Origin: Candidatus Gastranaerophilales bacterium
GTDB lineage: Bacteria; Cyanobacteriota; Vampirovibrionia; Gastranaerophilales; Gastranaerophilaceae
DNA: 64,000 bases
Assembly (NCBI GenBank): GCA_944324865.1
Contig: CALUXW010000006.1
Span: 1-64,000, forward strand
Reading direction: 5' to 3'
This document shows positions 1,255 through 27,693 of this stretch, in pieces (the first letter of the stretch is position 1; every line of letters starts with the position of its first letter). The notes beneath the pieces are model-generated. The model was given only the letters and a program-made list of their open reading frames with translations, ran no database searches and had not been told where the DNA came from. A program made the translations under genes and the position numbers.

Positions 1255-2090
1255 TTATTAAACTCCTCAAGTGCGCATGCCAGTTTATTAAATTCATATA
1301 TAGAAAGCTTTTCACCTCTTATATTATAATCCCAACCCAATTTTTCTAAAGCATCATTTACCCCTAGCATTCCTGCAGACAGGAGTGAATTCTTGATATT
1401 TTTTCTCCTTGTATTAAAAGCGGCTTTTACAGTCTTTTTTAATAAAAAAGAAGGATTTTCAACTCTTGGTTTAAAGTTATTTTTAATTCTCACAATAGCT
1501 GAATCAATCTTTGGAGAAGGATAAAAAGAACGTTTTGAAACTTGCCTTATTGTTTGAGTGTCACAGAAAAATTGGGACAAGATAGAGAGCATGCCATATT
1601 CTTTGTTTTGAGAATTTTCATTTGCACAAATTCTTTTTGCAACTTCATACTGTACCATAAGGATTATCTCGTCAATATGATAACGATTTTTATTTTCAAA
1701 ATCATCAATTTCACCCAACAAATGAACCAAAATTGGACTTGTAATATAATAAGGAATATTTGCAATAATTTTTATTTTCTTATCCCTAGGGTATATTTCA
1801 TCTAAATTTACCTTTAAAATATCATTTTCAATAAGGGTAAAATTTTTCTTACCGACAAGACTTTTATTTAAAATTTGAATTGCATCCTTATCTATTTCAA
1901 CAGCAACCACCTCTTTTGCCACATTAACAAGGCGCTCTGTGACAAACCCAAGCCCTGGGCCAATTTCAAAAATACAATCATTTTCATTAACACAAGATAA
2001 AATATCTTCAATAACCTTTTCATCAATAAGAAAATTCTGCCCCAAGCTTTTTTTTGCTCTAAACTGTTTTGCACGAAAATAATAATCCAT
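1251..2090 (-). CDS. rsmA: 16S rRNA (adenine1518/1519-N6)-dimethyltransferase RsmA (KsgA)
   Basis: Dimethylates two adjacent adenines in the 3' hairpin of 16S rRNA during small-subunit maturation. Visible are KKSLGQNFL near the N-terminus, the SAM-binding EIGPGLG (residues 43-49) and the catalytic NIPYY (111-115). The frame stays open further upstream to a TTG at 2111 and an ATG at 2105, but ATG 2090 lies exactly six bases after a TATAAT and gives a normal 279-aa protein, so I choose it. The gene lacks a Shine-Dalgarno, starts the rsmA-ispE unit and is divergent from gshA. Confidence 0.93.
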   Translation of the reverse strand: MDYYFRAKQFRAKKSLGQNFLIDEKVIEDILSCVNENDCIFEIGPGLGFVTERLVNVAKEVVAVEIDKDAIQILNKSLVGKKNFTLIENDILKVNLDEIYPRDKKIKIIANIPYYITSPILVHLLGEIDDFENKNRYHIDEIILMVQYEVAKRICANENSQNKEYGMLSILSQFFCDTQTIRQVSKRSFYPSPKIDSAIVRIKNNFKPRVENPSFLLKKTVKAAFNTRRKNIKNSLLSAGMLGVNDALEKLGWDYNIRGEKLSIYEFNKLACALEEFNK

Positions 2091-2096
2091 AAATTT

Positions 2097-2148
2097 ATTA
2101 TACATAAACAATCAGCTAGGTGCCAATTATTTTTGAGTTTGGTAAAAT
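2097..2148. promoter_or_regulatory. Divergent rsmA/gshA promoters with overlapping -35 boxes
   Basis: Leftward: -35 TTGGCA (2126-2121), 18-base spacer, -10 TATAAT (2102-2097), then six bases to ATG 2090. Rightward: -35 GTGCCA (2120-2125), 17-base spacer, -10 TAAAAT (2143-2148), then six bases to ATG 2155. The two -35 boxes occupy the same DNA, so the promoters should compete for polymerase. Both transcripts would start at or within a base or two of the ATG. Confidence 0.6.
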
Positions 2149-2154
2149 TAAAGC

Positions 2155-3468
2155 ATGCTAAATTACAAAAATGCAAAAACCGAAACAAAACCTCTTGATA
2201 TTAGGCAAATAAGGGAGTATTACGAAAACTCCTGCAAAGAAGAATCAAAATTTGGGCTTGAATACGAGAGAATTTCTATAGATTCCGCAACATTAAAAAC
2301 TGCAAACTATTACTATATACAAAAAATTATAAAAAACTTTGCACATATAAAAGGTTGGGGGCTTTTATACGACAAGGAAACGTTAATAGGAGCGATTGGG
2401 AAATGTTCATCAATTTCTGTTGAGCCCGGATGTCAATTTGAATTAAGTCTTGAACCAAAAAAAGAAATTTGTGAAATTGAGAAAGATACAAAAGAAAATT
2501 GTATACTTTTAAATAGAATTGCAGGATTTTATAATATTGAATTTTTACCTCTTGGTATAACTCCATATTCAACATACCAAAATATAGATATTGTAAAAAA
2601 ACAAAGATATGAAATTATGGCAAAATTTCTGCCTGAAAATGGAAAATTTGCACCAATTATGATGAGAGAAACAGCAGGAGTACAGCTAAACATTGATTAT
2701 AAAAACGAAAAAGATGCAATTAAAAAAATCAAACTGCTTTCCTACATTTCTCCTTTTTTAACAGGTTTTTTTGCAAATTCTCCTATTCGAAACAATAAAC
2801 TAACAAATTACAAAAGTTTTAGAGCACTTGCCTGGAAATATACAGGAAAAGAACGTTGTGGATTATTTTATAAAAATCTTTTAAACAATAAAACCTCAAC
2901 TTTTGATGATTATATTAACTCAATTTTAGATATACCTATGCTTTTTATAGAGAGGGATGAAAAAAGAATAATCATAGGTCAAAAAATTACATTTAGAAAG
3001 TACATGCAAGATGGATATCAAGGCTATAGTGCAAATTTAAATGACTATATTCTACACTCAAGCCTTTGTTTTCCTGATATTAGATTAAAAAACTGCATAG
3101 AAATCAGAAATCACGACAGTCAAAACATCGGTTTAACACTTGCTATGTGTGCTTTTTACAAAGGAATTTTACAAAGCGATTTTAAAGAAATTTTAAATAA
3201 TTTGAAAGACCTAACTTGTTTTGACATTAACAAAATGGGTTTATTAGCAGCCAAACACGGCACAAATTTTATATATAAAAACATAGATGCAAAAACTTTC
3301 ACAAAAAAACTTTTTGAAATATCTAAAAATTGTCTAAATACAAAGGAAAAAAACTATCTTGACCCTGCATTTAAAATTTTAAATAAAGATGAATGTATAG
3401 CAGATAGAATCATTAAAAAGCAAATTAAAAATGCAAATAATCTTATTGACTACCTTAAAAAAGAGTAA
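2155..3468 (+). CDS. gshA: Glutamate-cysteine ligase, GCS2 family
   Basis: Probably catalyses ATP-dependent gamma-glutamylcysteine formation, the first step to glutathione or another low-molecular-weight thiol. The 437-aa protein resembles the plant/alphaproteobacterial GCS2 type rather than E. coli GshA. A central block (MMRETAGVQLNID, then FFANSP and DIPMLF) matches the substrate-binding core of that group, and a conserved EIRNHDSQ segment lies in the C-terminal half. No glutathione synthetase (gshB) is visible in the window. The gene is monocistronic, lacks a Shine-Dalgarno and has a -10-like TAAAAT six bases before its ATG. A carboxylate-amine ligase acting on another substrate cannot be excluded. 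Confidence 0.82.
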   Translation: MLNYKNAKTETKPLDIRQIREYYENSCKEESKFGLEYERISIDSATLKTANYYYIQKIIKNFAHIKGWGLLYDKETLIGAIGKCSSISVEPGCQFELSLEPKKEICEIEKDTKENCILLNRIAGFYNIEFLPLGITPYSTYQNIDIVKKQRYEIMAKFLPENGKFAPIMMRETAGVQLNIDYKNEKDAIKKIKLLSYISPFLTGFFANSPIRNNKLTNYKSFRALAWKYTGKERCGLFYKNLLNNKTSTFDDYINSILDIPMLFIERDEKRIIIGQKITFRKYMQDGYQGYSANLNDYILHSSLCFPDIRLKNCIEIRNHDSQNIGLTLAMCAFYKGILQSDFKEILNNLKDLTCFDINKMGLLAAKHGTNFIYKNIDAKTFTKKLFEISKNCLNTKEKNYLDPAFKILNKDECIADRIIKKQIKNANNLIDYLKKE

Positions 3469-23799: not shown

Positions 23800-26626
23800 A
23801 ATTTAAATATTTTTTCAAATATTTACCGGTATATGAATTTTCGCATTTTACAACCTGCTCCGGAGTACCCTTTGCAATTACCATGCCACCATCCTGACCA
23901 CCTTGCGGTCCAAGGTCTATAATATAGTCGGCACATTTTATAATATCTAAATTGTGTTCAATAATTAACACAGTGTTGCCATTATCAGCAAGCTGATGAA
24001 GAATTTTTACAAGTTTATCAATATCCCACCAATGTAGACCAACTGAAGGCTCATCCATCAAATAGAGTGTTTTACCCGTCGCACGCTTATTTAATTCAAG
24101 TGCCAGTTTAACCCTCTGTGCCTCACCGCCTGAAAGAGTTGTTGCACTTTGCCCTAATTTAATATAATCCAATCCCACATCATATAATGTTTGCAATCTT
24201 GTTGCAATTTTTGGTACATTTTTGAAAAATTCTAAAGCCTCACCTACAGTCATTTCCAAGACATCAGCTATACTTTTTCCTTTATATTTTACCTCGAGCG
24301 TCTCTTGATTATATCTTTTACCTTTGCAAACATCACACTTTACATAAACATCAGATAAGAAATTCATTTCAATTTTTAAAACACCATCACCCTTGCACTT
24401 TTCGCACCTTCCGCCCTTGACATTAAAAGAAAATCTACCCTGTTTATATCCTCTAACTTTTGCTTCGTTTGTCTGAGCAAAAAGGTCACGAATATGTGTA
24501 AAAACATCCGTATATGTTGCAGGGTTAGAGCGTGGTGTTCTACCAATAGGACTCTGGTCAACACATACAATTTTATCAATATATTCAAATCCTTTTATTT
24601 CGTCCACACCTTGAGGTTTAGGACGATTTGAACGCAATTTATGCATTGCATACTCGTTAACTAAATCTTGTACCAAGGTTGACTTACCACTACCTGAAAC
24701 ACCGGTAACCGCTACAATTTTTCCCAGGGGAATATTTACATCTAAATTTTTCAAATTATTCAAATGTGCATTTTTGATTTCTAAAAAATTTCCACTTCCC
24801 AATCTTCTTTCTTTTGGTACAGGTATTTTCAATTCTTTACTTAAATACTTGCCTGTAATGGATTCTTTTGCGTTTTCAATATCTTTTTGCGTGCCAAAAG
24901 CAACAATTTTTCCACCTTCAACACCAGCCTTTGGACCAATATCAACAATATAGTCAGCAGCTTTAATTGTATCTTCATCATGTTCAACAACAATTAAAGT
25001 ATTGCCGAGATTTCTTAATTTTAAAAGTGTATTTATAAGCATATCATTGTCTCTTTGATGCAGACCAATCGAAGGCTCATCTAAAACATAAAGTACACCT
25101 GATAAACCTGAACCAATTTGAGTTGCGAGCCTGATTCTCTGAGCTTCACCACCCGAGAGTGTACCAGCATTTCTTGCAAGATTTAAATAACCCAATCCTA
25201 CATCAATTAAAAATTTTAAACGTACACGAATTTCATCTAAAATTTGCTTTGCAATAGTTAATTTAAAATCATCCAAATTTAAATAAACTTCTTGAATAAA
25301 TTCATATGCCTCACTAACAGGCAACAAACAAAACTCATAAATATTTTTATTCAAAATTGTCACTGCAAGTGCAAACTGATTTAAGCGTGCGCCATTACAT
25401 GCCTTACAAGGAATTGAGGTCATATATTTTTGTATTTCAGTACGAATTAAATCAGAATCAGAACTTTCATATTTTTTTGTTAAATAAGGAATAACACCTG
25501 GATACGGGATATAGTGAGTATGATAATTTTTAGTACCAAAATCAGCATAACGCATTTTAATTTTTTCATCATCATTACCGTATAATATTATACCTTTTTG
25601 GGATGGACTAAGACTTTTAAAAGGAATATCAGGGTCAATTTCATAATATTCGCAAACACTATTTAAGATGTCATAATAATACTGATTACCTGTTTTTGCC
25701 CATGGGTAAATTGCACCTTGATTTATAGATTTTGACGGGTCCGGAACTACAAGTTCCGGTGTTATTTCAAAATGCGCCCCCAAACCGTTACAAACCTTGC
25801 AAGCTCCGTAGGGATTATTAAAACTAAGCATTCTGGGTGTTAATTCTTCAAAACTTAAATTGCACTTTGGGCATGCCAATTTCTCGGAAAATATTTGCTC
25901 TCCTTGTCCAATTACATCAAGTACCATAAGCCCGTCAGAACGTTGCAATGCAATTTGAGAACTGTCAAAAATACGAGACTTTGCTGATTCTTTTACAACA
26001 ATTCTATCAATTACAACTTCAATCGTATGTTTTTTTGTTTTATCCAGCTCAATTTCATCCTCATCAAGATTATAAATTTTACCGTCTACTCTGACTCTTA
26101 CAAAACCCTCGGACTTTAAACCCTGCAAAGTTTGAATATATTCTCCTTTTTTACCTCTTATAATAGGCGAAATAATTTGAATTTTTTTGCCTTCGCCCAA
26201 TGACATAATTTTAGTAACAATTTCATCAATTGTTTGCGGAAGTATTAAATCCCCACAATTTGGACAATGAGGAGTGCCTACACGAGCATATAAAAGTCTT
26301 AAATAATCATATATTTCAGTAATTGTACCAACGGTTGAGCGTGGATTGTTTGTTGTGGATTTTTGATCAATTGAAATAGCAGGCGAAAGTCCATCAATAT
26401 GTTCAACATCAGGCTTATCCATTTGTCCCAAAAATTGACGTGCGTATGTAGAAAGACTCTCCACATAACGCCTTTGTCCCTCAGCAAAGATTGTATCAAA
26501 AGCAAGTGAACTTTTACCAGAACCGGAAACACCTGTAAAAACGATAAGTTGATTTTTTGGTAATTCTAAAGAAACATTTTTTAAATTGTGTTCTTTTGCA
26601 CCATTTATAACAATTTTGTCATTCAT
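23798..26626 (-). CDS. uvrA: UvrABC excision nuclease subunit A
   Basis: 942-aa dimeric ABC ATPase that recognises bulky DNA lesions and loads UvrB. Both Walker A motifs (GVSGSGKSSLAF and GVSGSGKSTLVQ), two ABC signatures (LSGGEAQR) and the zinc fingers (CPNC...CPKC, CEKCKGDG...CDVCKGKR) are present. The start is ATG 26626, preceded by CATAAT at exactly six bases; the frame is open to a TTG at 26644. No Shine-Dalgarno and no LexA-type GAAC-N4-GTTC box is seen upstream. Confidence 0.97.
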   Translation of the reverse strand: MNDKIVINGAKEHNLKNVSLELPKNQLIVFTGVSGSGKSSLAFDTIFAEGQRRYVESLSTYARQFLGQMDKPDVEHIDGLSPAISIDQKSTTNNPRSTVGTITEIYDYLRLLYARVGTPHCPNCGDLILPQTIDEIVTKIMSLGEGKKIQIISPIIRGKKGEYIQTLQGLKSEGFVRVRVDGKIYNLDEDEIELDKTKKHTIEVVIDRIVVKESAKSRIFDSSQIALQRSDGLMVLDVIGQGEQIFSEKLACPKCNLSFEELTPRMLSFNNPYGACKVCNGLGAHFEITPELVVPDPSKSINQGAIYPWAKTGNQYYYDILNSVCEYYEIDPDIPFKSLSPSQKGIILYGNDDEKIKMRYADFGTKNYHTHYIPYPGVIPYLTKKYESSDSDLIRTEIQKYMTSIPCKACNGARLNQFALAVTILNKNIYEFCLLPVSEAYEFIQEVYLNLDDFKLTIAKQILDEIRVRLKFLIDVGLGYLNLARNAGTLSGGEAQRIRLATQIGSGLSGVLYVLDEPSIGLHQRDNDMLINTLLKLRNLGNTLIVVEHDEDTIKAADYIVDIGPKAGVEGGKIVAFGTQKDIENAKESITGKYLSKELKIPVPKERRLGSGNFLEIKNAHLNNLKNLDVNIPLGKIVAVTGVSGSGKSTLVQDLVNEYAMHKLRSNRPKPQGVDEIKGFEYIDKIVCVDQSPIGRTPRSNPATYTDVFTHIRDLFAQTNEAKVRGYKQGRFSFNVKGGRCEKCKGDGVLKIEMNFLSDVYVKCDVCKGKRYNQETLEVKYKGKSIADVLEMTVGEALEFFKNVPKIATRLQTLYDVGLDYIKLGQSATTLSGGEAQRVKLALELNKRATGKTLYLMDEPSVGLHWWDIDKLVKILHQLADNGNTVLIIEHNLDIIKCADYIIDLGPQGGQDGGMVIAKGTPEQVVKCENSYTGKYLKKYLN

Positions 26627-26668: not shown

Positions 26669-26701
26669 TTGTTATATATTTGTTATATATTTGTTATATA
26701 T
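26669..26701. repeat. Three perfect 11-bp tandem repeats
   Basis: TTGTTATATAT occurs three times head to tail (26669-26679, 26680-26690, 26691-26701) without a mismatch, just upstream of a plus-strand TATAAT and about 45 bases upstream of uvrA on the other strand. The 11-bp period puts identical faces on one side of the helix. Confidence 0.9.
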
Positions 26702-26706
26702 GGAAT

Positions 26707-26712
26707 TATAAT
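26707..26712 (+). promoter_or_regulatory. Consensus -10 of the candidate small RNA
   Basis: A perfect TATAAT. The TTGTTA units lie 10 or 21 bases upstream, neither ideal; TTATAT at 26683-26688 would give an 18-base spacer. Confidence 0.4.
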
Positions 26713-26718
26713 AGTAGA

Positions 26719-26800
26719 TTAGTTCTTCTCTTTCCACTCCTTCCTCCATATACAGATTAGATTTTTATTCTCGTCGCCCTCAAAAAGGCGGCTTTTTTTT
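26719..26800 (+). ncRNA. Candidate pyrimidine-rich small RNA
   Basis: Intergenic plus-strand unit between two minus-strand genes (uvrA, aroE), so its promoter and terminator belong to neither. It consists of TATAAT (26707-26712), a 25-base stretch with 24 pyrimidines (26723-26747) ending in ACTCCTTCCTCC, and a rho-independent terminator. No ORF. ACTCCTTCCTCC can pair with Shine-Dalgarno sequences, and ACTCCT is shared with the conserved core of the cyanobacterial small RNA Yfr1 (ACUCCUCACAC); homology to Yfr1 is only a suggestion. The 5' end is estimated from the -10 position. Confidence 0.5.
26773..26800 (+). terminator. Terminator of the candidate small RNA
   Basis: GTCGCC (26773-26778) pairs with GGCGGC (26787-26792), including one G-U pair, followed by eight T (26793-26800) on the plus strand. 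Confidence 0.8.
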
Positions 26801-26835: not shown

Positions 26836-27693
26836 TTACATCAAACTCTCGAGTGCAGCTATTTTCATAGCAGCAACGTCCGGGGTGCTTCCTGTCCAAA
26901 TTTCAAAAGCTTTTTGTGCTTGAAACACCAACATATCCAAACCACCAACACATCTTATATTGCACTCTTGTGCATACTTAATTAATTTTGTCTTAACAGG
27001 ATTGTACACAATATCATAAATGAAAGCATCATCATCTAGGGTTTTTACTTTATTAAAATCAATCGGGCAAACACCTTCAAGGAAATTTTTCATACCTGCC
27101 GGTGTAGTATTTACAAGTATTTTATTGCCCCTTAATGTATCCATTAATGTATATGGGTTTAGTTCTATTTTAATTTTTGGAAATTTTTGTCTTAACAACT
27201 CTATGTTTGAATGAGAATCAATAACATTTCTTGAATAAAAAGTAATTTTAGAAACTCCAAGGCTCACCAATCCCGCACATATTGCACGGGCAGCACCACC
27301 TGTGCCTAAAACAACCGCGCATTTATCTTTAATATTTAATTTAATATCATCAGGGATGGGTTTAACAAAACCGTAAATATCAGTGTTTGAACCTTCAAGA
27401 TTTTTATCAGCTGTAATCTTTACGGTATTTACTGAACCAATCAAATTTACATTAGCATCAAACTTAGATAAAAAAAGCGTAATCGGAACTTTATGAGGAA
27501 TTGTAACATTAAAACCATTATAACCTTCCACCTTAAGTTTTTTAATTCTTGAAACTAAATTTTCAGGCTCAGTAGGCAAAACATCATAAACACCATCAAA
27601 TCCACAAGTTTTCAGTGCAGTCTCGTGTATCACCTTGCTTAAAGAATGCGAAAGCGGATAGCCAATTACTGCAAATTTATAACTTTCGCTCAT
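26836..27693 (-). CDS. aroE: Shikimate dehydrogenase
   Basis: 285-aa NADPH-dependent enzyme reducing 3-dehydroshikimate to shikimate in aromatic amino acid synthesis. The shikimate-binding GYPLSHSLSK and NVTIPHK (catalytic Lys) motifs and the nucleotide-binding GTGGAARA are intact, with GSNTDIYGF between. It is last in the fixC-aroE unit and overlaps the topA stop as ATGA. Confidence 0.95.
   Translation of the reverse strand: MSESYKFAVIGYPLSHSLSKVIHETALKTCGFDGVYDVLPTEPENLVSRIKKLKVEGYNGFNVTIPHKVPITLFLSKFDANVNLIGSVNTVKITADKNLEGSNTDIYGFVKPIPDDIKLNIKDKCAVVLGTGGAARAICAGLVSLGVSKITFYSRNVIDSHSNIELLRQKFPKIKIELNPYTLMDTLRGNKILVNTTPAGMKNFLEGVCPIDFNKVKTLDDDAFIYDIVYNPVKTKLIKYAQECNIRCVGGLDMLVFQAQKAFEIWTGSTPDVAAMKIAALESLM

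Follow-up and report, generated by a model that had tools for sequence, protein, structure and literature searches.

We identified a candidate small RNA (sRNA) gene at about 26713–26800 on the plus strand of a 64,000-nt stretch of DNA (hereafter, the window) from Candidatus Gastranaerophilales, a lineage of gut bacteria within the non-photosynthetic Cyanobacteriota, and comparison with related sequences leaves us nearly certain that the gene is real and conserved. The unit delineated by this comparison comprises a promoter, a G-free C/U tail of ~30–45 nt, a linker and an intrinsic terminator, set among neighbours that change, and we traced it, inspecting the sequences, to no fewer than 24 genera within a single family. 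It appears to represent an undescribed, family-wide sRNA of gut Gastranaerophilales that is absent from Rfam; Rfam searches of the window at gathering and permissive thresholds returned chance matches only, and a literature search that left most subscription journals outside its scope turned up no report of Yfr1, or of any small RNA, for this lineage. As to function, we lean modestly towards an autonomous, trans-acting sRNA that would pair with Shine-Dalgarno (SD) sequences and be under sigma-B/F-like control.

Locus, conservation and distribution

The gene lies between uvrA (likely start codon at 26626) and aroE (26836–27693), both on the minus strand, and the uvrA of the window matches the closest three Gastranaerophilales MAGs at 89–93%, with Candidatus Galligastranaerophilus intestinavium among the matches. 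The preliminary description of the locus had pointed to 24 pyrimidines among the 25 bases at 26723–26747, ending in ACTCCTTCCTCC, and to a strong terminator with eight T on the plus strand between two minus-strand genes, and we found both in the sequence as described. The pyrimidine tract belongs to a C/U-rich tail with zero G (plus strand, 26723–26754), predicted to be unpaired and proposed here as the binding region, whose SD-complementary core ACTCCTTCCTCC (26736–26747) is invariant in the genus and kept in genera g35, g40, g50 and g52. Downstream of the tail, on the same strand, the intrinsic terminator consists of a GTCGCC..GGCGGC hairpin (26773–26792), with a covarying counterpart in genus g35, and the T-run (26793–26800); TTCTTCTCTTTCCACTCCTTCCTCCATATACA is plus-strand sequence belonging to the predicted sRNA. 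No ATG, GTG or TTG occurs in 26713–26800, and a small protein encoded in the sRNA of the window was rejected for want of a start codon. The single-sequence statistics of the locus are unremarkable, and it is comparison that carries the evidence: 25-base segments this rich in pyrimidines number seven (overlapping) on the plus strand of the window and three on the minus strand, rare and not unique, and terminator-like sites in the region show no excess over shuffles.

Among 14 aligned same-genus sequences, mean pairwise difference over 26723–26754 was 0.004, compared with 0.135 for the first uvrA codons, 0.235 for the uvrA-side spacer and 0.588 for the downstream stretch; values for the −35 region, −10 region and linker were 0.056, 0.077 and 0.055, respectively. 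The block was found upstream of uvrA in every same-genus genome but one (G012, a 75% complete MAG).

Neighbouring genes, which we named by reading translations, were uvrA and aroE in genera g1 and g50, and alaS, ilvC, leuC-like, rplT, ftsZ, dapB-like genes and others elsewhere. Because the loci are unrelated across genera, it is the RNA itself that is under selection. The stems of the terminators change in sequence and keep their pairing. Within g35, where terminator arms were excised by hand for the count, eight distinct stems had 100% of cells paired with both-sided changes at 2/7 pairs, and the covariation score was 0.362 against 0.194 in shuffles, 3/500 of which scored as high. The independent small RNA gene suggested in the preliminary description is strongly supported: core and terminator are both conserved in relatives, and, judged from sequence, the gene recurs in 24 genera as a conserved unit with its own promoter and terminator at non-syntenic loci, with a conserved promoter and covarying terminators.

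Tracing relied on a pattern search and then on three successive sequence-only models, applied to the order, class and phylum and to chosen genomes; the later models were built on model-fitted alignments, since MAFFT, run on the sequences jointly, put the core in the wrong place. Subtype 1, the form found in the window, reads CUUCUCUUUUCCACUCCUUCCUCCAU, subtype 2 reads CUCUUUAUACUUUCUCUUCCACUCCUUUUCUCCAU and similar, and subtype 3 reads ACCAUUUUCUUUUUCUUUAUUUUCUCCUACACACUAACCUUUUACC, the last two being joined by intermediates in g38, g43 and g29 (UUUUCUCCUCCACUCCUUUAUC). Every main subtype retains CUCCU, and the pyrimidine stretch preceding it varies in length and sequence. Members of subtype 3 were first found at marginal scores; they agree with one another over ~50 nt and share the promoter and terminator, and a later model scored them at E ~1e-6 to 1e-8, with some of the scored members having contributed to that model and others (G020, G051 and G100 among them) lying outside its training set. 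The third model gave no match in g3, g8, g9 and g49, each represented by one genome. Two weaker candidates, L229 and L231 (E ~0.007–0.009), come from families f5 and f6; they combine GTTTAG-N14-GGGTAT or GTTTAA-N14-TGGAAC with a C/U-rich RNA and a terminator and are plausible members of the sRNA family.

Marginal matches in f2, f3, f4, f7, f10 and f12 and in one photosynthetic genome were mostly coding-like or without core or terminator and were rejected, as was a 5′ hairpin as a general feature, AGUGG/CCACU being confined to g40 and some g50 members and AGUGA/UCACU to g52. In the g6 subtype (L174, ~585–620), the post-core sequence ATGATGAAAACTTTGCCGGTCGATGTGTAA may form a 9-codon ORF that extends into the terminator; the window and g54 have no counterpart. 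A repeated reading frame, VKRELQRTARNRIRVSRAKRCAT, upstream of the sRNA at a g35 locus (L148, 1–210) probably reflects tandem non-coding repeats.

The C/U-rich tail and its possible targets

In representative sequences the tail is free of G over 27–58 nt, and it is predicted to be unpaired in all subtypes (for the tail in the window, predicted mean unpaired probability over the G-free run = 0.85). Both CUCCUU and CCUCC, complementary to SD sequences, lie in a region of the tail that predicted folding leaves accessible. By analogy with other CU-rich sRNAs, our best guess at the mechanism is SD pairing. The exposed CUCCUU/CCUCC tail would pair, Hfq-free, with the purine-rich SD regions of some mRNAs, and this pairing would block ribosome binding; with no G available, the tail would not form internal structure, and the 3′ end of the sRNA would be guarded by the terminator hairpin. 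Hfq was absent from the 24 relatives searched, with five control genomes positive.

Unpaired C/U-rich stretches are likewise present in LhrC of Listeria, in RsaE and the UCCC-motif sRNAs of Staphylococcus aureus and in FsrA of Bacillus. CU-rich sRNAs of Firmicutes, sometimes present in several copies per genome, have been proposed or shown to bind SD sequences, and LhrC regulates lapB without Hfq (PMC4132741). The RNA described here has one long 5′ tail, whereas the UCCC motifs of the Firmicutes sRNAs lie in loops, and homology is not evident; we regard it as a new RNA family, putatively of the SD-blocking, CU-rich type. Such a family would offer a testable control (the SigB/F-like factor) and a testable site (the CUCCU-bearing, G-free tail) in a lineage where Hfq was not detected.

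Targets were assessed with a duplex-energy scan of ~464 kb of the organism's own genome, about a quarter of it, with gene starts called crudely. AGGAG-type SD sequences were found upstream of 59/422 sampled genes versus 3 at internal control sites, and pairing of the tail at gene starts showed no excess over shuffled tails (mean −9.16 versus −9.03, sd 0.26). Extended pairing at the best predicted target was lost in the sister species; the second-best was a CtpA-like protease, with orthologs located in relatives. A near-complementarity search of 15 genomes returned one near-perfect tail complement per genome, namely the sRNA gene itself. Neither the duplex-energy scan nor the near-complementarity search gave a convincing conserved target. 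The earlier characterization of the RNA as anti-SD-like fits its sequence (unpaired, G-free, with CUCCUU/CCUCC), but the target test of the putative pairing was negative. A partial tail complement with three mismatches, GGAGGAAGAAGTTGCAA, was also seen in nine same-genus genomes (for example, G007, contig C4, 7453–7469) and is possibly conserved coding sequence.

Instead of pairing with mRNAs, the C/U tail could act as a decoy or scaffold by binding another sRNA or a protein (for example, the pyrimidine-binding ribosomal protein S1), which we consider somewhat unlikely. The invariant stretch exceeds the usual length of a seed, and enriched or conserved mRNA pairing was not found, as this reading would have it; however, a constant CUCCU preceded by variable pyrimidines fits SD pairing better than it fits a general pyrimidine-binding protein.

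Promoter and sigma factor

The preliminary description took the TATAAT at 26707–26712 on the plus strand as the −10 element, in which case the housekeeping sigma factor would transcribe the sRNA constitutively. This is unlikely in our estimate. The window has the hexamer in perfect form, and several relatives show TATAAT-like hexamers there, but the sister species have AGTAAT or TATAAA, the columns beneath it carry little information across 82 members, and a scan of the locus gave no acceptable sigma-70 −35 partner for it. The element that is conserved is GTTA-N16-17-GGNAT, represented on the plus strand of the window by a −35-like GTTATA (26682–26687) and a −10-like TGGAAT (26701–26706), the latter invariant in the 14 same-genus sequences, and the TATAAT reading is probably wrong. 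Each of the 82 distinct members (82/82) carries GTTA or GTTT, then GG after 16–17 nt and then mostly NAT, in a search that covered offsets of 16–20 for GG and kept the best; because the members are related, these are not 82 independent observations. An RNA transcribed from the sigma-B/F-like promoter would be ~88 nt long (26713–26800), with a start uncertain by several nucleotides, and the ~82 nt proposed earlier holds if TATAAT is the −10.

The sigma-B consensus has been cited as GTTTAA-12/15-GGGTAT (PMC3313859). The arrangement found here, GTTATA-N13-14-(G/T)GGNAT, resembles these Firmicutes promoters, and differs in that most −35 elements read GTTATA and the base after GG is usually A. In 29/29 relatives searched, a sigma factor was present that matches SigB/F/G best among NCBIfam models, at ~193 bits and below the curated 234-bit cut-off. 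We infer that this SigB/F/G-like factor uses the promoter and would transcribe the sRNA gene; under control of this type, the sRNA would respond to stress or growth phase. A degenerate sigma-B-like pattern gave five sites between genes and the reversed pattern also gave five (~464 kb of genome), and because there is no enrichment, a wider regulon is not supported.

Three perfect 11-bp repeats of TTGTTATATAT (26669–26701, plus strand) overlap the −35 region in the window. At the same place, relatives have a conserved TATATAC/GTTATATA-like, TATATA-rich element upstream of the −35 with weak dyad symmetry, and other genera have an imperfect inverted repeat (in g30, for example, AAGTATATA..TATATACTT); these elements are possibly the site of a regulator (a transcription factor). 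At one g35 locus (L171), the sRNA core at 1561 precedes ilvC, with genes at 1705–3095, and the gene after ilvC starts like a SigB/F/G-like sigma factor (MAEENSLPLEEVNDWLDEYRTTTDEKTKKRLKELVVLA...).

Relation to Yfr1 and remaining explanations

The layout of the locus had been likened to that of cyanobacterial Yfr1. The likeness in layout holds: as in Yfr1 (and Yfr10, which has the same motif), a short RNA carries an unpaired, G-poor CUCCU motif and a 3′ terminator hairpin, the GC-rich hairpin with U-tail of Yfr1 being present in the sRNA family, and Yfr1 belongs to the same phylum and is almost universal in its own group. Homology was tested and is unsupported by the covariance model, with no match to RF01116 in the window at the gathering or permissive threshold and none in genome G000 at E up to 1. 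The core is ACUCCUUCCUCC here versus ACUCCUCACAC in Yfr1, and the ACUCCU of the window, equalled by 33% of shuffles, is at chance level when set against the ultraconserved ACUCCUCACAC. Yfr1 has a stem-loop of 6–10 bp before its motif, whereas no stable 5′ hairpin was predicted in eight representatives; predicted lengths are 82–88 nt in the window and 62–91 nt in other genera, compared with 54–69 nt for Yfr1. Its usual neighbours, guaB and/or trxA, were absent at the loci read. In Yfr1, UCCU is necessary for binding the target ppa (PMC6778093).

We regard it as very improbable that the sRNA is an ortholog of Yfr1 (RF01116). Shared phylum and an unpaired CUCCU region ahead of the terminator are consistent with orthology, and subtype 3 CUCCUACACAC fits the Yfr1 motif better than all but 0.5–0.9% of shuffles, a resemblance that is suggestive only, since seven tails were compared; against this, RF01116 exceeded its cut-off in 0 genomes of the family and in 43/117 sampled phylum genomes, the neighbours differ and the 5′ stem-loop is absent. 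A distant link to Yfr1 through another subtype is conceivable. Descent of the family and Yfr1 from one sRNA already present before photosynthetic and non-photosynthetic Cyanobacteriota diverged strikes us as improbable; the g7/g10 and g38 subtypes (CUCCUACACAC, CUCCUCCAC) would then be intermediates and the ACUCCUUCCUCC of the window derived, and riboregulation of the CUCCU type would predate oxygenic photosynthesis. The sequences assembled here also make it possible to examine whether regulation of the Yfr1 type is older or younger than the divergence from photosynthetic cyanobacteria.

The probability that the element serves uvrA on the minus strand, as a cis element or leader, or is a chance sequence, is practically negligible: it does lie directly upstream of uvrA in the window, where the minus strand reads GGAGGAAGGAG, but a cis role for uvrA is excluded since neighbours change between genera, most of which have others, the T-run is functional on the plus strand only, and a chance sequence is excluded because 26723–26754 was conserved while its flanks diverged.

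Duplicate copies of the gene were observed in two settings. Downstream of rplT in genus g54 (L178, genome G256), tandem copies at 501–593 and 711–804, 210 bp apart, each carry a separate promoter and terminator, an arrangement like that of multicopy sRNAs. In genome G006, contig C1 carries the sRNA region twice (274645–274790 and 282418–282563; L014, L015, L173), at a distance of 7.8 kb and each time adjoining a uvrA start, reflecting either tandem duplication or faulty assembly.
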